DNA from: Actinoplanes liguriensis | Lineage (GTDB): Bacteria > Actinomycetota > Actinomycetes > Mycobacteriales > Micromonosporaceae | Direction: 5' to 3' | Assembly (NCBI GenBank): GCA_000715855.1 | Contig: KL571236.1 | Span: forward strand, 19,529 to 30,529 | Length of the DNA: 11,001 bases | Shown: one piece after another, positions 1-10,543 of the stretch | Numbering within the stretch: the first letter of the stretch is position 1 | Layout: each line of letters opens with the position of its first letter | The notes under the pieces: generated by a model | Databases searched by the model: none | Told to the model about the DNA's origin: nothing | The model's input: the letters and a program-made list of their open reading frames with translations, nothing else | Translations under genes and position numbers: made by a program

Positions 1-209
1 ACCGCGGCCCGCTCCTCGGCCAGCCAGTTCGGAACCTCGTCGTCGGCGGAGGAGGTGTCGCCGGCCGGCACCGCCGCCACGGTCGTCACGGACTCACCCG
101 CGTGACCGTGATCGTGGTGGTGGTGCCCGTGGTCGTGTCCATGCTCGTGATCGTGGTGATGTCCGTGGTCGTGGGCCACGGTCTGCAGGGATTCGGTCTC
201 GCTGCTCAT
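1..209 (-). CDS. His-rich N-terminus of protein downstream of sufU (partial; possibly SufT-like)
   Basis: Only the first ~69 codons are in the window; the frame stays open to the left edge. The ATG overlaps the sufU stop by 4 nt (ATGA) and has a near-perfect Shine-Dalgarno, so this is a real, translationally coupled gene of the suf operon. Residues 13-36 hold 15 histidines interleaved with Asp, Glu and Gly, typical of a flexible site for Ni, Zn, Co, Fe or Cu. After it come an acidic/Ser/Thr/Ala linker and an Asn-Trp-Leu-Ala-Glu-Glu stretch. No conserved domain is reached. In actinobacteria the gene after sufU is usually a DUF59/SufT (PaaD-like) Fe-S assembly factor, so a SufT with an added metal-binding tail is the leading guess from position alone. 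A metal chaperone or transporter is also possible. The gene is well supported; its identity is not. Confidence 0.75.
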   Translation of the reverse strand, partial: MSSETESLQTVAHDHGHHHDHEHGHDHGHHHHDHGHAGESVTTVAAVPAGDTSSADDEVPNWLAEERAA

Positions 210-658
210 GCCTTCACCTCCGGGCTCGCGCCCACCTCGACACCGGCGCGCGCCGCCGCGTCCTTGAATGCCATCCACGGGAGCAGGGCGCACTTCACCC
301 GGGCCGGGAACTTGGCCACACCGGCGAAAGCAATGCCGTCGCCGAGCACGTCCTCGTCCGGCTCGACGGCGCCACGGCTCTGCATCAGCTCCACGAACGC
401 GCGGTGGACCTCGGCGATGGTCGCCGAATCCTTGCCCTCGAGCAGCTCGTGCAGCACCGATGCGGAGGCCTGGCTGATCGAGCAGCCCAGGCCGTCATAC
501 GAAATATCGCTCATGTCCGCGTTGACCCGGACGGTGATCTCGTCGCCGCAGGTCGGGTTGACGTGGTGCGCCTCGCCGTCGAACTGCTCGCGCAGGCCAC
601 GCCCGTGGGGGTGCTTGTAGTGGTCCAGGATGATCTCCTGGTACAGACCGTCGAGCAT
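206..658 (-). CDS. sufU: SufU, zinc-dependent sulfurtransferase of the SUF system
   Basis: SufU accepts persulfide sulfur from SufS and passes it toward the SufBCD scaffold in the cytoplasm. The 150-residue length fits the family. The expected metal/sulfur ligands are present: C37 and D39 in PTCGDE, C59 in GLGCSISQAS, and C123 in RVKCALLPW. The long spacing between the second and third cysteines includes the insertion that separates SufU from IscU. The start at 658 is chosen because ATG shares its A with the sufS stop (TGATG), GGAAGGTG lies just upstream, and the N-terminus matches the usual Leu-Tyr-Gln-Glu-Ile-Ile-Leu-Asp-His-Tyr opening. A longer in-frame start at 775 would sit inside sufS and add a non-conserved leader. 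It lies directly after its sulfur donor gene sufS. Assignment is firm. Confidence 0.96.
   Translation of the reverse strand: MLDGLYQEIILDHYKHPHGRGLREQFDGEAHHVNPTCGDEITVRVNADMSDISYDGLGCSISQASASVLHELLEGKDSATIAEVHRAFVELMQSRGAVEPDEDVLGDGIAFAGVAKFPARVKCALLPWMAFKDAAARAGVEVGASPEVKA
214..221 (-). promoter_or_regulatory. Ribosome binding site for the His-rich gene
   Basis: GGAGGTGA on the minus strand lies 4 nt before the ATG at 209, inside the 3' end of sufU. It is one of the strongest Shine-Dalgarno matches in the window and fixes the start of the His-rich gene. Confidence 0.7.
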
Positions 659-1887
659 CAGCCGAACACCTTCCGCACCTGGTCGAGACCGCGCGCCAGG
701 GCGTCGATCTCCTCCGTGGTCGTGTAGAGGTAGAACGAGGCCCGGGTCATCGCCGGGACCGAGAACCGCTGGCACACCGGCCGGGCGCAGTGGTGGCCGA
801 CCCGCACCTCGACGCCGAGCGCATCCAGGACCTGCCCGACGTCATGAGGGTGTACCCCGTCGACACCGAACGACACCGTGCCACCCCGGCTGACGGGTGA
901 GGCCGGGCCGTAGATGCGGACGCCGGGGACCGCCGCGAGCTGCTCCAGCGCGTACGCCGTGATCTCCTGCTCGTGGCGGTGGATCTCGTCCATGCCGATG
1001 CCGGTGAGGTAGTCGACCGCCGCCCCGAGCCCGATCGCCTCGGTGATCGGCGGGGTGCCGGCCTCGAAGCGGGCCGGCGGCGGCGCATACGTCGTCTTCC
1101 CCATCGTCACGGTCTCGATCATCGAGCCGCCGGCCAGGAACGGCGGCATCTCGGAGAGCAGGCCGAACCGGCCCCAGAGAACGCCGATGCCGGTCGGGCC
1201 GAGCATCTTGTGACCGGTGAACGCGATGAAGTCCACGCCCAGCGCCCGCACGTCGACCGCGAAGTGCGGCACCGACTGCGAGGCGTCCAGCATGACCAGC
1301 GCGCCGACCTGACGGGCCCGCTCGACCAGCCGCGCCGGGTCGTTGATCGTGCCGAGCACGTTGGACATGTGCGCGACCGAGACCAGCTTCGTCCGCTCGT
1401 TGACCAGCTCGTCGAGCTGGGACTCGTCGAGGCGGCCCTCGTCGGTGATGCCGAACCAGCGCAGGGTCGCGCCGGTCCGCTCGCAGAGCAGCTGCCACGG
1501 CACCAGGTTCGAGTGGTGCTCCATCTCGGAGATCACGATCTCGTCGCCCTCCTTCAGGGCGAGGAACTGCCCTGCGGAGTGCGCGACCAGGTTGATCGCC
1601 TCGGTGGAGTTCTTGGTGAAGATCACTTCATCGGGGCTGCCCGCACCGATGAAGCTCGCGATCCTCGCCCGCGCGCCCTCGTACATCTCGGTCGACTCGG
1701 TGCCCAGGGTGTGCACCGAGCGCGACACGTTGCCGTTGTGCCTCTCCTGGTGCGCGCGCATGACGTCGAGCACCTGCACCGGCTTCTGCGAGGTGTTGGC
1801 GCTGTCCAGGTAGACCAGCGGGTGGCCGTTCACCTCCCGCTCGAAGATCGGGAAGTCCTTGCGCACCCGCGCGACGTCGAAGCTCAT
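658..1887 (-). CDS. sufS: SufS, PLP-dependent cysteine desulfurase (class V aminotransferase fold)
   Basis: SufS converts L-cysteine to L-alanine and holds the sulfur as an enzyme persulfide, the sulfur source for Fe-S cluster assembly. At 409 residues it has normal family length. Visible landmarks are the cofactor-stacking region EMEHHSN (H124/H125), D201 and Q204 in LDASQS, the Schiff-base lysine K227 in FTGHKMLGPTG, and the active-site cysteine C367 in RVGHHCARP. The short, structured loop around C367 is the group II (SufS) form, not the IscS/NifS form. The ATG at 1887 follows AGGGG by about 6 nt and lies 8 nt past the sufC stop. It overlaps sufU by 1 nt, in keeping with SufS-SufU pairing. 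Nothing is missing or broken. Confidence 0.97.
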   Translation of the reverse strand: MSFDVARVRKDFPIFEREVNGHPLVYLDSANTSQKPVQVLDVMRAHQERHNGNVSRSVHTLGTESTEMYEGARARIASFIGAGSPDEVIFTKNSTEAINLVAHSAGQFLALKEGDEIVISEMEHHSNLVPWQLLCERTGATLRWFGITDEGRLDESQLDELVNERTKLVSVAHMSNVLGTINDPARLVERARQVGALVMLDASQSVPHFAVDVRALGVDFIAFTGHKMLGPTGIGVLWGRFGLLSEMPPFLAGGSMIETVTMGKTTYAPPPARFEAGTPPITEAIGLGAAVDYLTGIGMDEIHRHEQEITAYALEQLAAVPGVRIYGPASPVSRGGTVSFGVDGVHPHDVGQVLDALGVEVRVGHHCARPVCQRFSVPAMTRASFYLYTTTEEIDALARGLDQVRKVFG

Positions 1888-1895
1888 CTTTACCC

Positions 1896-2654
1896 CTAGG
1901 CCTTGGCGAGGAACTTCTCGTAGCCGGACACCTCGAGCTCCTCGGCCAGCTCCGAGCCACCCTCCTCGACGATCTTGCCGCCGACGAAGACGTGCACGAA
2001 GTCCGGCTTGATGTAGCGCAGGATCCGCGTGTAGTGGGTGATCAGCAGAAAGCCGGTCTCGCCGGTCTCGCGGACCCGGTTGACGCCCTCGCTGACCACC
2101 CGCAGCGCGTCGATGTCCAGGCCGGAGTCGGTCTCGTCGAGGATCGCCATCTTCGGCTTGAGCAGCTCGAGCTGCATGATCTCGTGCCGCTTCTTCTCAC
2201 CGCCGGAGAAGCCCTCGTTGACGTTGCGCTGCGCGAACGCCGGGTCCATCTGCAGCTTCTCCATGGCGCCGCGCAGCTCGCCGGCCCACGTCCGCAGCTT
2301 GGGCGCCTCGCCGTCGATCGCGGTCTTCGCCGTACGCAGGAAGTTCGCCACCGAGACGCCGGGGACCTCGACGGGATACTGCATCGCGAGGAAGAGGCCG
2401 GCGCGGGCGCGCTCGTCGACGGTCAGGGCGAGCACGTCCTGCCCGTCGAGAGTCACCGAGCCGCCGGTGATCTCGTACTTCGGGTGGCCGGCGATGGAGT
2501 AGGCGAGCGTCGACTTGCCGGAGCCGTTCGGGCCCATGATGGCGTGCGTCTCGCCCGACTTGATGGTGAGGTCGACCCCGGCGAGGATCGGCTTCAGCTC
2601 GCCATCCGGCAGCTTCACCGAAACCTGCAGGTCGCGGATCTCCAGGGTGCTCAC
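1896..2654 (-). CDS. sufC: SufC, ABC-type ATPase of the SufBCD scaffold
   Basis: SufC is the cytoplasmic ATPase that drives conformational change in the SufB-SufD heterodimer during cluster assembly. It is not a transporter subunit. The 252-residue protein has a full ABC nucleotide-binding domain: Walker A GPNGSGKST (41-49, K47), Q-loop Q92, signature FSGGEKKR (149-156), Walker B ending in D173-E174, and switch histidine H207. The SufC-specific phrase after Walker B, ETDSGLDIDAL, is present. The start is GTG at 2654, which overlaps the stop of the upstream Rieske gene by 4 nt (GTGA) with GGAG about 8 nt upstream. It sits between the Rieske gene and sufS in the operon. Assignment is firm. Confidence 0.97.
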   Translation of the reverse strand: MSTLEIRDLQVSVKLPDGELKPILAGVDLTIKSGETHAIMGPNGSGKSTLAYSIAGHPKYEITGGSVTLDGQDVLALTVDERARAGLFLAMQYPVEVPGVSVANFLRTAKTAIDGEAPKLRTWAGELRGAMEKLQMDPAFAQRNVNEGFSGGEKKRHEIMQLELLKPKMAILDETDSGLDIDALRVVSEGVNRVRETGETGFLLITHYTRILRYIKPDFVHVFVGGKIVEEGGSELAEELEVSGYEKFLAKA

Positions 2655-2983
2655 GGGTTTACTCCATTGCTCGTCTGTGTCGAAACGTAGATGTCTCCGT
2701 CGCGGATCTCGACGGGGTAGACCGCCACCGGGTCGATGGCGGGCGGACCGGAGGGCTCACCGGTACGCAGGTCGAAGCGCGAGCCGTGCAGCCAGCACTC
2801 CAGGGTGCAGCCGTCGACCTCGCCCTCGGAGAGCGCCACCGAGGCGTGGCTGCACTCATCGCGTACCGCGTAGAAGTTGTCGTCGTCGGCGTGCACGATC
2901 GCGACCTCGACACCGTCGACCTCCACCTGGAGGGCGGTGCCTTTCGCGATGTCCGACACCGGCCCGACGTTCTCGAAAGCCAT
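2651..2983 (-). CDS. Rieske-type [2Fe-2S] ferredoxin encoded within the suf operon
   Basis: This is a small soluble Rieske protein of 110 residues with no signal peptide or membrane segment, like the ferredoxin components of ring-hydroxylating dioxygenases. The [2Fe-2S] ligands are C44 and H46 (CSH) and C63 and H66 (CWLH), each pair followed by the expected Gly/Ser and aromatic residues; C59 is an extra cysteine. It overlaps the sufD stop by 1 nt (TAATG) and the sufC start by 4 nt, so it is co-translated with SUF genes. No oxygenase or reductase gene is nearby, so a catabolic role is unlikely. A role in electron supply or as a SUF client is inferred from position. Rieske genes at this position are common in actinomycetes and are often annotated as dioxygenase ferredoxin subunits. 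Confidence 0.92.
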   Translation of the reverse strand: MAFENVGPVSDIAKGTALQVEVDGVEVAIVHADDDNFYAVRDECSHASVALSEGEVDGCTLECWLHGSRFDLRTGEPSGPPAIDPVAVYPVEIRDGDIYVSTQTSNGVNP

Positions 2984-4110
2984 TAAGCCCCGGCCTCCAC
3001 CAGCCGGGCCTCGATGGCGTCGCCCAGGCGCTCGCGCAGCTCCTCGACCGGGATCTTGTTGATCAGCTCGGCGAAGAAGCCACGCACGACCAGCTTGCGC
3101 GCCTCGCTCTCCGGGATGCCGCGGGCCATCAGGTAGAAGAGCTGCTCGTCGTCGAAACGACCGGTGGCGCTCGCGTGCCCGGCCCCGGCCACCTCGCCGG
3201 TCTCGATTTCCAGATTTGGTACGGAGTCAGCCCGCGCCCCGTCGGTCAGGACGAGGTTCCGGTTGATCTCGTACGTGTCCGTGCCGGTGGCAGTCGCCCG
3301 GATCAGCACGTCGCCGACCCAGACCGTGTGCGCGGACGCGCCCTGCAGCGCGCCGCGGTAGCCCACGTAGCTGCGGCAGTCCGGCACCGAGTGGTCGACC
3401 AGCTGGCGGTGCTCCTGGTGCTGGCCGGCGTCGGCGAAGTACAGCCCCCACAGCTCGGCGTCGCCGCCGCGCCCGGTGTACTCCACGCTGGTGAACTGGC
3501 GGACCAGGTCACCGCCGAGCGTGACCTGCACGTGCTGGACGCGGGCGTCCTTGCCGACCCGGAACTTCACGTGCTGCGCCTGCACGGCGTCGCTCGCCCA
3601 GTCGGCCACCGTCACGAAGGTGAGCTGGGCGCTGTCGCCGATGATCACCTCGATGTTGTCGGCCAGGGTGACCGTGCCGGTCTGCTCCAGCACGACCGTG
3701 GCCTTGGCGAAGTTGCCGACCTTGACCACGGTGCGCGCGGCCGCGGCCTCGCCGCCCTTGCCGACCAGGTGGATCACGGCCGCCTCGGTGGGCTCGGCCT
3801 CGGCCGCCACCTCGATCACGGTGACGCCGGCGGCCGAGCCGTACGCGAGCGCGCTGATCCGGTCGAACGGGGTGAGCACCGGGTCGACGTCGTCGGCGTT
3901 GGACACCGTCACCCCGGCGGGCAGGTCGTCGTGCTCCACCGCCGGGGCCGCGCCAGACAGCGACGTGGCCTTGACCAGGTCACCCAGGCGCTTGAGGGGG
4001 GTGAAACGCCACTCCTCCTCCAGGCCGTTGAGGGCCGGGAAGTCGGCGACGTCGAAGGAGCGCAGCACCTGCGACTTGGTGCTCGGCGGGGCGATGGCCT
4101 CGGTAGTCAT
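2983..4110 (-). CDS. sufD: SufD, Fe-S cluster assembly scaffold subunit
   Basis: SufD pairs with SufB on a SufC dimer to form the cytoplasmic SufBC2D scaffold and is linked to iron entry. The protein has 375 residues, the usual length. The middle is the beta-helix typical of SufB/SufD. The conserved C-terminal part contains AGQHQEHRQLVDH (228-240), the cysteine in PDCRSYVGYRG, and H312 in GAGHASATG, which matches the functional interface histidine of E. coli SufD (H360). The same frame is open upstream into sufB, giving a spurious 569-residue reading. The ATG at 4110 is chosen because AAGGAAGA lies just before it, it lies past the sufB stop, and it gives the normal N-terminus. The 38-nt gap to sufB is the largest inside the operon. 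The stop overlaps the Rieske start by 1 nt. Confidence 0.96.
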   Translation of the reverse strand: MTTEAIAPPSTKSQVLRSFDVADFPALNGLEEEWRFTPLKRLGDLVKATSLSGAAPAVEHDDLPAGVTVSNADDVDPVLTPFDRISALAYGSAAGVTVIEVAAEAEPTEAAVIHLVGKGGEAAAARTVVKVGNFAKATVVLEQTGTVTLADNIEVIIGDSAQLTFVTVADWASDAVQAQHVKFRVGKDARVQHVQVTLGGDLVRQFTSVEYTGRGGDAELWGLYFADAGQHQEHRQLVDHSVPDCRSYVGYRGALQGASAHTVWVGDVLIRATATGTDTYEINRNLVLTDGARADSVPNLEIETGEVAGAGHASATGRFDDEQLFYLMARGIPESEARKLVVRGFFAELINKIPVEELRERLGDAIEARLVEAGA

Positions 4111-4111
4111 T

Positions 4112-4119
4112 TCTTCCTT
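4112..4119 (-). promoter_or_regulatory. Ribosome binding site for sufD
   Basis: AAGGAAGA just before the ATG at 4110 selects the sufD start over the longer open frame that reaches back into sufB. Confidence 0.55.
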
Positions 4120-4148
4120 AGTCAGCTTCTTTGCGACGGCCGGGCTGA

Positions 4149-5570
4149 TTAACCCACGGCCCCTTCCATCTGCAGCTCGATCAGGCGGTTCAGCTCCAGG
4201 GCGTACTCCATGGGGAGTTCCTTGGCGATCGGCTCGATGAAGCCACGCACGATCATGGCCATCGCCTCGTCCTCGGTCAGACCGCGGCTCATCAGGTAGA
4301 AGAGCTGGTCCTCGCTGACCTTGGAGACGGTCGCCTCGTGGCCCATGTTCACGTCGTCCTCGCGGATGTCCACGTACGGGTACGTGTCCGAGCGGGAGAT
4401 CGTGTCGACCAGCAGCGCGTCGCACTTGACCGTGCTCTTGGAGTGCGCGGAGCCCTCCAGGACCTGGACCAGACCGCGGTACGACGTACGCCCGCCGCCC
4501 CGCGCGATCGACTTGGAGATGATCGTCGAGGAGGTGTGCGGCGCGGCGTGCACCATCTTGGCGCCCGAGTCCTGGTGCTGGCCGGCACCGGCCATCGCGA
4601 TCGACAGCACCTCGCCCTTGGCGTGCGGGCCGGTCATGTAGACCGCCGGGTACTTCATGGTCACCTTGGAGCCGATGTTGCCGTCGACCCACTCCATGGT
4701 CGCGCCCTCTTCGCAGGTGGCGCGCTTGGTGACCAGGTTGTAGACGTTGTTCGACCAGTTCTGGATGGTCGTGTAGCGCACCCGGGCGTTCTTCTTCACG
4801 ACGATCTCGACGACCGCGGAGTGCAGCGAGTCGGAGGAGTAGATCGGCGCCGTGCAGCCCTCGACGTAGTGCACGTAGCTGCCCTCGTCGGCGATGATCA
4901 GGGTCCGCTCGAACTGGCCCATGTTCTCCGTGTTGATCCGGAAGTAGGCCTGCAGCGGGATGTCGACGTGCACACCCTTCGGCACGTAGATGAACGAGCC
5001 GCCGGACCAGGTCGCGGTGTTCAGCGCGGCGAACTTGTTGTCGCCGACCGGGATCACCGTGCCGAAGTACTCCTTGAAGACGTCCTCGTGCTCGCGGAGG
5101 GCCGTGTCGGTGTCCAGGAACAGGACGCCCTGGGCCTCCAGGTCCTCACGGATCGCGTGGTAGACGACCTCGGACTCGTACTGCGCGGCGACGCCGGCGA
5201 CCAGGCGCTGCTTCTCCGCCTCAGGGATGCCGAGCTTGTCGTACGTCGCCTTGATGTCCTCCGGCAGGTCCTCCCAGGAAGCGGCCTGCTTCTCGGTGGA
5301 CCGGACGAAGTACTTGATGTTCTGGAAGTCGATGCCGGTGAGGTCGGCGCCCCACGACGGCATCGGCTTGCGGCCGAACAGGCGCAGGCCCTTGAGACGC
5401 AGGTCCAGCATCCACTGCGGCTCGTTCTTCAGCGCGGAGATGTTGCGGACCACGGACTCGGACAGGCCACGCTGCGCGGTGGCACCGGCGACGTCGGCAT
5501 CGGCCCAGCCGTACTCGTACCTACCAAGAGCGGCCAGGTGCTCTTCCTGAGTGACGATCTGGTCAGTCAT
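4149..5570 (-). CDS. sufB: SufB, Fe-S cluster assembly scaffold subunit
   Basis: SufB is the main scaffold subunit on which the cluster is built with SufC and SufD. It is 473 residues long, the usual intein-free length; there is no intein, unlike mycobacterial SufB. The N-terminal segment [13 protein letters not shown] (53-65) and the beta-helix core with [13 protein letters not shown] (188-200) are typical. Toward the C-terminus C383 (KCDALLVD) and the pair H411-E412 (MGHEATVS) match the E. coli residues C405, H433 and E434 used in sulfur/cluster handling at the SufB-SufD interface. The terminal motif [11 protein letters not shown] is present. The ATG at 5570 overlaps the sufR stop by 4 nt (ATGA); a modest AGGACAG lies upstream, so translation probably depends partly on coupling to sufR. 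Confidence 0.97.
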
Positions 5571-6295
5571 GTATCTGTCCTAACCGTGATTGCGGCGGTT
5601 GTTACGGGCGCCGGACGGGCCGGGATGTGCGTGGTGCACACTCCGTCGCCGTGCGCGATGGTGGCGAGGCGCTGCACGTGAGTGCCGATGAGCCGGGAGA
5701 TGACTTCGGTCTCGGCGTCGCACAGCTGAGGGAACTCGGCAGCCACGTGGGCCACCGGGCAGTGGTGCTGGCACAACTGTCCGCCGGACGCGATCGTGGT
5801 CGCGCTGGCAGCGTAGCCCTCCGCGGTCAGCGCGTCGGCGAGCGCCTCCGCCCGGGCGATCGGGTCCGGCCCGGCCTCTTCGAGAGCGGCACGGCAGCGG
5901 TCCTCCAGCGCCTGGATCTGCGAACCGGCGAACGCGGTGACCGCCTCCGGCCCGTTGTGCTGGGCGATCCACCGCAGGGCCGCGGCGGCGATGTTGTCGT
6001 AGTGATGCGGAAGACTCTCCCGCGCGGCGGCGGTGAGCACGAACGCCTTGGCCGGGCGGCCACGGCCACGCGGGCCGGTGCGACGGACCTCCCGGGTCTC
6101 GACGAGCTGGTCGGCGAGCATCGCGTCGAGGTGCTTGCGGATCGCCGCCGGGCTCAGGCTCAGGCAGGCGCCGAGCTCGGCCGCGGTGGCCGCGCCACGC
6201 TCCAGCAGCAGCTGGGCGACCCGATCCCGGGTGCGGCCGTCCGACGCGGCGGCTGTTGCCACCGCACCGTCTCTCAGCTGCACCTGGGTTTTCAC
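5567..6295 (-). CDS. sufR: SufR, Fe-S-sensing repressor of the suf operon
   Basis: This is a DeoR/ArsR-like winged-helix regulator with a C-terminal cysteine domain. It represses suf genes when it carries a cluster. The DNA-binding part spans about residues 22-92, with a helix-turn-helix in [19 protein letters not shown] and a basic wing [12 protein letters not shown]. Cysteines C175 and C179 (CQHHC), C192 and C220 form the likely Fe-S site; C44 and C134 lie outside it. The GTG at 6295 is chosen (242 residues) because a good promoter ends 7 nt upstream, and it leaves a ~20-residue lead before the helix-turn-helix as in relatives. In-frame ATG 6352 and TTG 6379 would lie upstream of that promoter. 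Its stop overlaps sufB, so the repressor is co-expressed with its targets and probably autoregulated. Confidence 0.94.
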
Positions 6296-6331
6296 TACGC
6301 CAACGTTACGTATTTCATCCCGGGGCTGCAA
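6296..6331 (-). promoter_or_regulatory. Promoter of the sufR-sufB... operon, probably leaderless
   Basis: On the minus strand a -35-like TTGCAG (6331-6326), a 17-nt spacer and a -10-like TAACGT (6308-6303) are followed after 7 nt by the GTG of sufR. Spacing and boxes fit a housekeeping (HrdB-type) promoter. A transcription start at or next to the GTG would give a leaderless message, in line with the absence of a Shine-Dalgarno there. The small palindrome AACGTT (6302-6307) overlaps the -10 box and could be part of a repressor site. The promoter call is an inference from sequence only. Confidence 0.6.
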
Positions 6332-6340
6332 ACCGGTCCC

Positions 6341-6360
6341 CCGGTGATCCATCACACCGG
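6341..6360. promoter_or_regulatory. Palindrome in the sufR-ctaA divergent region (candidate operator)
   Basis: GTGAT-CC-ATCAC (6344-6355) is a perfect 5-bp inverted repeat with a 2-nt centre. It extends by four more pairs if two bases (AC at 6356-6357) are skipped. It lies 12 nt upstream of the proposed sufR -35 box and between the two divergent promoters. SufR is the natural candidate to bind, but no known SufR consensus was matched with certainty. Confidence 0.3.
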
Positions 6361-6364
6361 GCCT

Positions 6365-6394
6365 TTCTTTCAAGATCAATTTCGCGCGTACGAT
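6365..6394 (+). promoter_or_regulatory. Weak promoter candidate for ctaA
   Basis: TACGAT (6389-6394) is a good actinobacterial -10 match, but the -35 is poor (TTCTTT with an 18-nt spacer is the best seen). The -10 box contains the ATG at 6393. If the promoter is real, the first usable start is GTG 6402, again exactly 7 nt downstream, mirroring the sufR side. Confidence 0.35.
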
Positions 6395-7361
6395 GCCACG
6401 GGTGAAGTCCTTCGAGCCGCTCTACCGTCCGTTCGCCGCCTGGTTGCGCCCGCTGGCCCTCGCGTCACTGGTCGCCAACATCGCGCTGATCGTCACCGGC
6501 GCGGCCGTCCGGCTCACCGACTCCGGGCTCGGCTGCCCCACGTGGCCCAAGTGCACCGACGGGTCGTACACGACGACGTCCGCGATGGGCGTCCACGGCG
6601 TCATCGAGTTCGGCAACCGGCTCCTCACGTTCGTGCTGGCCGGGCTCGCCATCGCCTGCTTCCTCGGCGCCTTGGGCCGGCCGCGCCGCCGCTCGCTGGT
6701 CCGGCTCTCGATCGTCGTCGGGCTCGGCATCCCGATGCAGGGCGTGATGGGCGGCATCACCGTCCTCACCCACCTCAACCCGTGGGTCGTCGGGATGCAC
6801 TTCCTGCTGTCGATCGCGCTGATCACCCTGGCGTTCGCGTTCTGGCGCCGGATCGACGAGGGCGACGGCGCGCCCGTGCTCCTGGTCCCCGCCCCGATCC
6901 GCGCCCTGGCCGCGCTCACCACGCTGGCCAGTCTCGCCGTCGTCGCCGCGGGCGTGGTCGTCACCGGCAGCGGGCCGCACTCCGGCGACCGCGGCGCCAA
7001 ACGCAACGGCCTCGACCCGGCCGCGGTCTCCCAGGTCCACGCCGACCTGGTGTTCCTGCTGATCGGCCTCTCGGTCGCGCTGTGGTTCGCGCTCCGCGCC
7101 GTCCCGGCCCCGCCGGCCGCGGTCAGGGCCGCGCTGACACTCGTCGTGGTCGAGCTCGCGCAGGGCCTGATCGGCTTCGTGCAGTACTTCACGCACCTGC
7201 CGGTCCTTCTGGTCGCCGCCCACATGCTCGGCGCCGGCCTGGTCTGGACCGCGACGCTGGCCGTCCTCTGGTCCCTGCGCACCCGCCCGGTCACGGTGCC
7301 GGCCCCCGCACCGCCGATCCCGGCCGTGCAGCCGGTCGCCGAGTCGGCCCCGGCTCACTGA
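6393..7361 (+). CDS. ctaA: CtaA/COX15-type heme A synthase
   Basis: This membrane enzyme oxidises heme O to heme A for aa3-type cytochrome oxidase. It is 322 residues with about eight transmembrane helices in two homologous four-helix halves. The first external loop has the cysteine pair C48/C54 in GLGCPTWPKC. H68 and E72 follow in HGVIEFGNR, where Bacillus CtaA has His in place of N75. Other expected heme-ligand histidines are H136 (VGMHF), H216 (SQVHADL) and H277 (AAHMLGAG). A Pro/Ala-rich cytoplasmic tail ends the protein. No Shine-Dalgarno precedes ATG 6393 or GTG 6402; the ATG is listed as the outer limit, but GTG 6402 (319 residues) may be the true start of a leaderless message. Divergent from sufR; its stop overlaps the end of the convergent NACHT gene by 7 bp. 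Heme and Fe-S genes side by side suggest a shared iron/respiration theme. Confidence 0.94.
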   Translation: MPRVKSFEPLYRPFAAWLRPLALASLVANIALIVTGAAVRLTDSGLGCPTWPKCTDGSYTTTSAMGVHGVIEFGNRLLTFVLAGLAIACFLGALGRPRRRSLVRLSIVVGLGIPMQGVMGGITVLTHLNPWVVGMHFLLSIALITLAFAFWRRIDEGDGAPVLLVPAPIRALAALTTLASLAVVAAGVVVTGSGPHSGDRGAKRNGLDPAAVSQVHADLVFLLIGLSVALWFALRAVPAPPAAVRAALTLVVVELAQGLIGFVQYFTHLPVLLVAAHMLGAGLVWTATLAVLWSLRTRPVTVPAPAPPIPAVQPVAESAPAH

Positions 7362-10300
7362 CCGAGGAACTCGGCCAGGTCCACCACGCAGCGGAAGCCG
7401 TCGTGGACCGTGCGGAACAGCGGGTGCGCGAAATCCCGCGCCCCGGTGCGCAGCAGCACCGGGTGGTGGTGGAACGCCCCGCCCCGCAGCACGTGGTACT
7501 TCTCCCCGTAGTGCTCCGACTTGTCCGGCGCCCCGGGGTAGGCCCGGTACCAGTCGGACGTGCGCTCGCAGACGTTCCCGGCGCAGTCCAGCAAGCCGAA
7601 GGGGCTGGCCCCGGCCGGGAACATGCCGACCGGTGTGGTCATCGGCCCGTCACGCACCTGGTCGTACCCGGCCCACCAGCGTGACCAGCTCTCCTCCCGG
7701 ACGATCGAGATGTCCGAGTGCCGCAGCGCCGAGTTGCAGCGCTCCGGATCCCAGACGTCGCCCCACGGCCAGATCCGCCCGTCGTCGCCCCGGGCCGCCC
7801 GCTCCCACTGCGGCTCGGTCGGCAGGGTCTTGCCGGCCCAGTCGGCGTACGCCTGCACGTCCGGCCAGCAGAGCAGCACCACTGGGTGGTCCGGGATCGC
7901 CTCCCAGCTCGTCCCGGGGCCGCGCGGGTGGGCCCAGTCGGCGCCGGGCAGTTCGACCAGGTCCGGTTGCGAACCGAGCTTGACGTGGCCGCTGCCCTCC
8001 CGCTCGGCGACCGTCCGGTACCCGGTGGTGGCGGTGAACACCGCGAACGCCGCGTTGGTGACCAGCGTCCGGTCGATGAAGTACTCCTTGAGCTCGACCG
8101 TGCGGGCGGGCATCTCGCTGACCGCCCAGGAGGCGCTCCAGCCGTACTGCTTGAGCAGGTAGCCGGCCTTCTCCTGGGACGTGCCCATGATGAACTCACC
8201 GGCCGGGATTCGGACCATGCCGAGCTCCTGCTCGTGACCGAGCGCCAGCATCGCGTTACGCGCGGCGATCCGCACCGCGGGTACCCCGTCGGTGCTCATC
8301 GTCCGCCGTAGCGCGGTGAGCGTGGTCTGGTCGGCCTTCTTCAAGCGGGCCAGCCCGCGGGCCGCGCGGACCCGCACCTCCGGGTCGGCCGCCTCCAGGT
8401 CCGCCCGCAACGGCACCACGGCCGCCTGGTCGGCGCCGGCCTGGGCGAGCAACTGGGCCGCCTCGGACCGGACCGCGGCGTCCTGCACCTGCAGGGTGCC
8501 CTTGAGCCGGTCGGTCATCAGCCTGTGTGTATAAGAGACAGGCTCCACGTAGTTCTCCACGCCCCGGCCGGTGATCAGCTTGAGCAGCCGGATGCCCTCC
8601 TCGCGGGCCTCGTCGGCCGCGTGCGGCAGCGCGGTGAACAGCCCGTCGCAGAGCTCGGTCCGCAGCCGCCCGTTGTCGCGCACGCTGGTCGCCTCGTGCA
8701 GGCAGCGGGCGGCCAGCAGCAGCCCGCGGTCGCTGAGCGTGCCGTCGGCCTGCCAGATCGCCCGGATCAGCGGGGCCGCGTCGGAGGCCCGGCCGGCGTA
8801 GAACAGGGCGACCATCTCCCACCGGTCGCGCACCTCGCCCTGCAGATTCTTCAGCAGCGTGCTGAGTCCGTCGGCCTGGTCGACCAGGCGGAGCGCGGTG
8901 AAGTACTCACGGAGCGTCTTGTGCGAGAAGTCGTACGTGTTGATCGCCTTCTCGTACAGCACGCCACTGCCCTCGGCGATCTCCCAGACGAACCGGCGGG
9001 CCTTGGTCCCGAAGTACTCGTCGGTCTCCTCGGCGTCGGTCTTGCCGTCCTCGGTCATGAACCGCTGCACCCGGTCGGTCAGCTCGTTCTGCGAGATCAG
9101 CGACCGGGCGGTGGAGTTCAGCTCCAGGGCCAGCTGCTTCAGGAACCGCTCCTTGGCCGGTTGGGTGAACTTGAAGTTGCGGCGCACCTTGCGGACGCTG
9201 TCCCACTCCCAGAACCGCACATTCACCAGTTGCGCGAACAGCTCGGTGCGCTGCGCGGTGTCCAGCTCGTCCCGGACGTCGAAGGACTCCACGATCAGGC
9301 TCAGCAGCAGCGGGTTGCCGCCCAGCTCCAGCAGCGAGCGGTCGCGGCGGACGATCTCCCAGAGCCGATCGGCGCGCTGCGGCTCACCCATGAACCAGTT
9401 GACGATGAAGTCGTGGATCTGGGCCGGTTCGAAGTCGAGCAGCTCGACGGTCTGGAAGTTGAGCGTGCCGGCCGCGATCTCGTAACTCTGCGGGCGGGAC
9501 GAGACCACGATCCAGTTCGGATGCTGCTTGTTGCTGTACCGGTTGGCGAAGCGGGTGACCAGGTCGATCACCACCGGCAACTTCTCCGGCTCGTCCACCT
9601 CGTCCAGCCCGTCGAGCAGGAACAGGAAGTGCCCGGCCTCCAGTTTGGACCGGATGAACCGCTGCGCGCTGGGGAAGTTGCGCTCGGCGAAGTACGTGGT
9701 CAGGTGCTCGGCGAGATCGGTGACGCCGGTCAGATCCTTGAGCGACAGGTAGATCGGGACCCGTCGGCCGGGCTGCCAACCGGCGTACTTCGTACGGCTG
9801 CTCCGCCTGGTCTTGCCGTTGGCCTCGGCCCGCAGGAAGGTCTTCGCCGGCACCGGCGTGGCACTCGCCGGGGCCGCCGGCAGCGCCGGGCCGGGCCGCA
9901 CGCGGTCGAGCAGGCGGCGGCCGGACGTCGGCGGCGCCTCGTTCTCCTCGACCGCCTTGTCCTGGGCGTAGAGGTAGCAGAGGTAACGCAGCAGGGTGGT
10001 CTTGCCCATCCCGGGCTCGCCGACCACGGCCAGCCGCTTGTACTGCGACAGCGCCGCACGCGGCTCCATCTTGGTCGAACCGCCCAGCCGGGCCCGCTCG
10101 GGTGCCTGGTCCCGCTGGCTGTCCGGGCTGCGCAGATGGCTCGGGACCCCGGTGATCTGGACCATCACGTAGAACTGGTCCATGTCGACCGGCCGGGTCC
10201 GGGAGAACTGCCAGCGGTTCGTCTCCTGGTCCAGCACGGCGACGTAGTTCTGGTAGAGGCGGCGGCGGAAGATCGTCCAGTCGGCGAAGGTCCGGCTGAT

Positions 10301-10543
10301 CCAGGACAGGCCCTTGCCCGCCCGGGTGGCGATCGACTCGGAGATCTTGCGCAGGAAGACGCCGATCAGAATCAGCGTGACCACACTGAGCAGGATCTCG
10401 AACTTCTTCGTGTTCCAGAACGTCTGGAGCAGGGGGCCGACGGGTGGTGTCGATCCGCTCGGGCTCGGCAGCGGCACGGCGGGGGCGTGCACCACGTCGA
10501 ACCAGAACGACGTGACGAGATCATGAATCGGCAGGAGCGGCAA
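7355..10543 (-). CDS. Membrane-anchored NACHT NTPase with HEAT-like repeats and C-terminal FGE/C-type-lectin-like domain
   Basis: A 1062-residue STAND-type signalling ATPase, probably an NLR-like sensor. In order: short Pro-rich N-terminus; one transmembrane helix (about 48-64) followed by many Arg/Lys, so the rest is likely cytoplasmic; NACHT with Walker A GEPGMGKTT (175-183), Walker B FLFLLDGLDEVDE (306-318), sensor VSSRPQ (347-352) and GNPLLL (409-414); helical region and HEAT-like repeats (about 580-770); FGE/SUMF1-type domain (about 774-1055) with RIPAGEFIMG, LPTEPQWERAARG, AGNVCERTSDWY, VLRGGAF and GFRCV. The FGE catalytic cysteines after RGGAF are absent (HHHP instead), so ligand binding is likelier than catalysis. 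An Ala/Pro-rich insert fills about 195-260. The TTG start at 10543 is chosen for its strong Shine-Dalgarno; the ATG at 10705 would overlap the aminotransferase. Residues 669-675 come from adapter-like sequence. Antiphage or stress-sensing function is inference. Confidence 0.88.
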   Translation of the reverse strand: MPLLPIHDLVTSFWFDVVHAPAVPLPSPSGSTPPVGPLLQTFWNTKKFEILLSVVTLILIGVFLRKISESIATRAGKGLSWISRTFADWTIFRRRLYQNYVAVLDQETNRWQFSRTRPVDMDQFYVMVQITGVPSHLRSPDSQRDQAPERARLGGSTKMEPRAALSQYKRLAVVGEPGMGKTTLLRYLCYLYAQDKAVEENEAPPTSGRRLLDRVRPGPALPAAPASATPVPAKTFLRAEANGKTRRSSRTKYAGWQPGRRVPIYLSLKDLTGVTDLAEHLTTYFAERNFPSAQRFIRSKLEAGHFLFLLDGLDEVDEPEKLPVVIDLVTRFANRYSNKQHPNWIVVSSRPQSYEIAAGTLNFQTVELLDFEPAQIHDFIVNWFMGEPQRADRLWEIVRRDRSLLELGGNPLLLSLIVESFDVRDELDTAQRTELFAQLVNVRFWEWDSVRKVRRNFKFTQPAKERFLKQLALELNSTARSLISQNELTDRVQRFMTEDGKTDAEETDEYFGTKARRFVWEIAEGSGVLYEKAINTYDFSHKTLREYFTALRLVDQADGLSTLLKNLQGEVRDRWEMVALFYAGRASDAAPLIRAIWQADGTLSDRGLLLAARCLHEATSVRDNGRLRTELCDGLFTALPHAADEAREEGIRLLKLITGRGVENYVEPVSYTHRLMTDRLKGTLQVQDAAVRSEAAQLLAQAGADQAAVVPLRADLEAADPEVRVRAARGLARLKKADQTTLTALRRTMSTDGVPAVRIAARNAMLALGHEQELGMVRIPAGEFIMGTSQEKAGYLLKQYGWSASWAVSEMPARTVELKEYFIDRTLVTNAAFAVFTATTGYRTVAEREGSGHVKLGSQPDLVELPGADWAHPRGPGTSWEAIPDHPVVLLCWPDVQAYADWAGKTLPTEPQWERAARGDDGRIWPWGDVWDPERCNSALRHSDISIVREESWSRWWAGYDQVRDGPMTTPVGMFPAGASPFGLLDCAGNVCERTSDWYRAYPGAPDKSEHYGEKYHVLRGGAFHHHPVLLRTGARDFAHPLFRTVHDGFRCVVDLAEFLGQ
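8526..8541 (+). other. Tn5/Nextera mosaic-end adapter sequence embedded in the NACHT gene (probable assembly artefact)
   Basis: TGTGTATAAGAGACAG is identical to the last 16 of 19 bases of the engineered Tn5 mosaic end used in Nextera library adapters. Natural Tn5 outer and inner ends each differ from it within these 16 bases, so a wild transposon end is a poor explanation. It lies mid-gene in a helical-repeat region and reads in the gene frame as VSYTHRL (residues 669-675). On the plus strand it opens a frame with MCIRDR, a peptide seen as an adapter artefact in sequence databases. Seven-base inverted repeats AGCCTGT (8520-8526) and ACAGGCT (8538-8544) flank an 11-nt loop and overlap the adapter. 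Real genomic sequence may have been lost, duplicated or joined here. Confidence 0.9.

Follow-up and report, generated by a model that had tools for sequence, protein, structure and literature searches.

Gene content of the window

The window, i.e., the whole stretch of 11,001 nucleotides analyzed here, corresponds to positions 19529-30529 of contig C44 in a draft assembly of 12,446,298 bases and 556 contigs. Runs of N directly adjoin the window on both ends, so the window is a single contig block, and the join described below at position 8526 is internal to that block. A SUF iron-sulphur cluster operon occupies window positions 206-6379, where SufS and SufB score above the NCBIfam cut-off; the other translations of this region we take to be SufU, SufC, SufD, a Rieske-type protein and a regulator.

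On the reverse strand, positions 7355-10543 encode, as assembled, a predicted NACHT, HEAT and FGE-sulfatase protein, as judged from Pfam matches and homologs. The start at 10543 was our choice, and the reading frame is open to 10705. The Pfam matches to NACHT and to the C-terminal FGE-sulfatase domain are above the cut-off, and the match to HEAT_2 is slightly under it. The protein has a weak NCBIfam match, far under the cut-off, to the antiphage NACHT protein EruA, and the single PADLOC match of the gene is weak as well. Seven relatives with at least 45% identity were found, some of them partial. When 60 genomes of the genus were searched, a full-length match was present in the genome itself and in none of the 59 others; among the matches listed from those other genomes, the similarity is limited to single domains.

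A mosaic end sequence within the NACHT gene

The sequence TGTGTATAAGAGACAG is located on the forward strand at positions 8526-8541, inside the NACHT gene. A first-pass annotation of this DNA had equated these 16 bases with the engineered mosaic end (ME) of Tn5/Nextera, and the match is indeed exact. It is the sole match in the window to the 19-base ME when up to three mismatches are allowed, and 0 of 200 shuffled sequences gave a match at the same threshold. All 16 bases agree up to the CAG end, so that the insert-proximal end is intact and the outer three of the 19 bases have no match. The feature is a remnant of the 3′ 16 bases of the ME, with its insert side toward higher coordinates. No 11-mer of the two tested adaptor-plus-ME sequences was found elsewhere in the window. 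Both peptides named in the first-pass annotation are read at this copy: VSYTHRL on the coding strand, as residues 669-675 of the 1062-residue reading, and MCIRDR at the start of an open reading frame on the strand opposite the gene.

Copy number and adaptor tails

The exact 16-mer occurs 1,732 times in the same assembly (856 + 876), and its reversed-sequence control occurs there 0 times. The genome-wide frequency of the 16-mer is far above chance. Within the genus, only this genome contains copies among the 67 searched, and the other 66 have none. Within the family, copies were found in 20 of 354 genomes, the 19 others carrying 1-11 each, so the contamination here is very heavy compared with that of the other affected genomes. 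All 35 forward copies in these 19 genomes lie at the beginning of a contig, with starts no further in than base 244 (25 reverse copies were left out of this count), which is the placement expected of adapter at a contig tip. Low-level ME remnants of this kind are seen, for example, in genomes G250, G212 and G178. Among the papers listed in our literature searches, none could be tied to this assembly.

Genome-wide, 38 copies extend 5′ into CGCGCCATCAG and 43 extend 5′ into CAGCCCGCTCAG, in each case ahead of AGATGTGTATAAGAGACAG. In PMC3699833, CGCGCCATCAG and CAGCCCGCTCAG are the 3′ ends of Epicentre Nextera adaptors 1 and 2, and AGATGTGTATAAGAGACAG is named as the Nextera adapter; the same adaptor 2 end is printed in PMC3836717. 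The ME reverse complement is given as a trimmed Nextera XT adapter in PMC10542563, and short inserts that lead to adapter in NexteraXT reads are described in PMC3906532. The assembly copies in question have the 3′ parts of the published adaptors fused to AGATGTGTATAAGAGACAG. The window copy differs from these adaptors in that it has no outer adaptor tail and retains only the final 16 bases of the ME.

Placement relative to scaffold gaps

The surroundings of the copies were inspected in two samples, one consisting of 20 stretches of the genome plus the window (410,000 bases, 64 of the 1,732 copies) and the other of 800,000 bases with 84 copies. Gap adjacency was defined in the first sample as an N run within 60 bases of the ME. 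N runs lie on the 5′ side of 50 of the 64 copies and on the 3′ side of none, with 1 copy at a contig start and 13 gapless. The second sample gave the same picture (5′ side 73/84, 3′ side 0/84, 1 near a stretch end, 10 gapless). Over both samples (1.21 Mb), a gap is found on the adapter side of 123 of 148 copies and on the insert side of none; 2 copies are near an end, and 23 are gapless, the window copy being one of these. At the far sides of the two gaps that bound the window, ME ends are present at the edges of the neighboring contig blocks, one of them with all 19 bases. In its sequence, its insert-ward orientation, its position at contig ends or gaps and the adaptor tails of some copies, the pattern is shared with Nextera/Tn5 ME contamination of draft genomes.

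The 133 N runs of the first sample are 63-359 bases long (runs cut at stretch ends included), which means that the assembly is interrupted about every 3 kb. In these 410 kb (L039-L058 plus the window, genome G000), 125 of the 133 runs measure 140-300 bases. GAGACAG is present within 40 bases of 63 of the 266 gap edges and absent from 197, with 6 edges too short to score. Many gaps are therefore free of adapter, though the adapter copies themselves are mostly at gaps.

Gene sequence missing at the join

The window protein was aligned with seven homologs that are 45-61% identical to it overall. Between two anchors on either side of the ME copy, it has 9 residues and all seven homologs have more (30 in two, 31 in five), so it is 21-22 residues shorter at this position. 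The ME accounts for 16 of the 27 bases between the anchors. By these figures the assembled gene lacks about 80 bp; at 45-61% identity to the homologs, the size of the loss in residues is an estimate. The first-pass annotation had expected about seven extra residues in this protein alone; the residue comparison is opposite to that prediction, yet it supports the same artefact reading, and the suspicion that neighboring sequence might be missing proved justified. Judged from the predicted proteins, the join is lossy and not a plain insertion. It is also local, since both flanks come from one gene and retain its order. The unreliable stretch extends over approximately 8515-8545.

None of the seven aligned homologs carries the ME peptide at the position of the join. 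One homolog, the metagenomic P0007, contains SYTH at a different place, in a short and odd N-terminal stretch; this may be a further piece of adapter or a chance occurrence.

At other gapless sites, the pieces on either side of the ME were searched separately. Four of the first sample's 12 such sites were tested against Pfam, and two were informative. At L052:9888, in an arginine deiminase gene, Pfam, two NCBIfam models and the PDB chain 1rxx all point to a loss of about 9 positions; the loss at L054:12261, in an EAL-domain gene, is about 10 Pfam positions. Eighteen bases lie between the pieces in each of the two. At a response-regulator/LytTR site the join falls in a linker by Pfam, and at an EamA-like site Pfam matches one side only.

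Reading frame and inverted flanks

The join in the window keeps the reading frame. For the gapless joins in general, frames were called with a simple three-periodic G+C model on 300-base flanks. Ten of the 23 were left uncounted, eight that lacked confident frames on both sides (including the EAL-domain site) and two with coding on opposite strands. Among the confident same-strand joins, the frame is kept in 4 of 7 in the first sample, the window join among them, and in 1 of 6 in the second. The combined proportion of 5/13 is at chance level, indicating that joining took place regardless of reading frame. The 4/7 had raised the idea that selection or a frame-aware step rescues the frame, which was rejected with the 5/13 of the enlarged sample.

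The 7-bp inverted flanks reported in the first-pass annotation are present (AGCCTGT at 8520-8526, ACAGGCT at 8538-8544), but they are no mark of a special mechanism, being in part ME: 5 of the 14 arm bases belong to it. Arms of at least seven bases were obtained around the same 16-mer in 218 of 20,000 random flanks of 70% GC (1.1%). We agree with the earlier advice that this hairpin be given no function, since its arms are partly ME and arms of that length occur in random flanks; a functional hairpin was rejected on this ground. Among the 16 sites scored, only the window site had arms of at least seven bases. Scoring was applied to those of the 64 first-sample sites with 12 N-free 5′ bases, and the arms had to reach the 3′ flank. 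By this rule, the longer inverted pairs of ME against ME at two of the 16 sites (L045:9370 and L054:10944) were excluded.

Five of the 23 gapless joins have an inverted piece of the ME (5, 7, 7, 9 or 13 bases) at the end of their 5′ flank, as would be seen if both contig ends had carried adapter. CTG at 8523-8525 on the forward strand of the window is at the same place as these pieces; these three bases may be what remains of a second, inverted ME end, or else genomic. In the former case, 3 matching bases remain in the inverted flanks.

Origin of the 16-mer

The 16-mer in the window is almost certainly residual Nextera adapter at a lossy assembly join, i.e., an artefact of library preparation and assembly. 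The library would have been made by tagmentation of the Epicentre Nextera type, in which Tn5 transposase fragments DNA in the tube and tips the fragments with adaptor and ME. Incomplete trimming of the reads would then have led the assembler to extend many contig ends into adapter, and most of these adapter-tipped ends would have been left next to a scaffold gap. At the window site, two adjacent pieces of one gene were probably fused via an adapter end with the loss of the roughly 80 bp between them, a join presumably made by the assembler or by a gap closer. That the contig was stitched through residual adapter, as the first-pass annotation had proposed, is borne out by the observed identity and number (1,732) of the copies, by the one-sided gaps, by the adaptor tails and by the residues missing relative to the homologs. 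Some points speak against an artefact: the window site is gapless, tail-free and in frame, and 4/7 in frame in the first sample exceeds one third.

The ME is also used in laboratory Tn5 transposons, and the exact match would fit a laboratory mutant with a real in vivo insertion of the Tn5 type, or with the footprint of one. Such an origin is highly improbable given 1,732 copies with one-sided gaps, some of them with adaptor tails unlike a transposon. No direct repeat corresponding to a 9-bp target duplication was found in the flanks of the 16-mer, and the gene is incomplete relative to all seven homologs, so that sequence has been lost and not only gained. A natural Tn5 end was rejected together with the mutant on these same grounds. 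A natural sequence that resembles the ME by chance or convergence would account for the open frame across the 16 bases, yet this is the least probable reading of all, in view of the shuffled sequences (0/200), the 66 congeners without a copy and the lack of the peptide at the site in the aligned homologs.

Two further alternatives accept the adapter and differ in what happened around it. With the 16-mer lying between in-frame coding stretches, it might have been simply inserted into a gene that is otherwise complete and naturally short here. We consider this improbable and set it aside because the homologs have more residues at the site, not fewer; the arginine deiminase and EAL-domain joins are lossy, too. 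Alternatively, common adapter ends could link unrelated contigs and so produce a chimera of two distant parts of the genome. Coding on opposite strands at 2 of the 23 gapless joins would be in line with this, and a real gene border would give the same. For the window a chimera is very unlikely, as both sides of the join align to the same homologs in order, with about 22 residues lost.

Consequences for the assembly

Residues around 669-675 are unreliable, as had been suspected; we recommend masking from about residue 667 to 675 and regarding the gene as incomplete at the join. An in-frame adapter join can conceal a deletion and pass for an intact gene, and the peptides VSYTH and MCIRDR are a handy warning sign of an adapter remnant. 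By simple proportion, the 23 gapless joins among the 148 sampled copies correspond to about 270 of 1,732, so that many proteins would be affected. Many predicted proteins in this reference assembly probably contain residues of synthetic origin, miss short segments or suffer from a frameshift, and some of them still look intact. The 16-mer is uninformative on the biology of the NACHT gene. The finding concerns data quality only, and the assembly needs cleaning before gene-level use.
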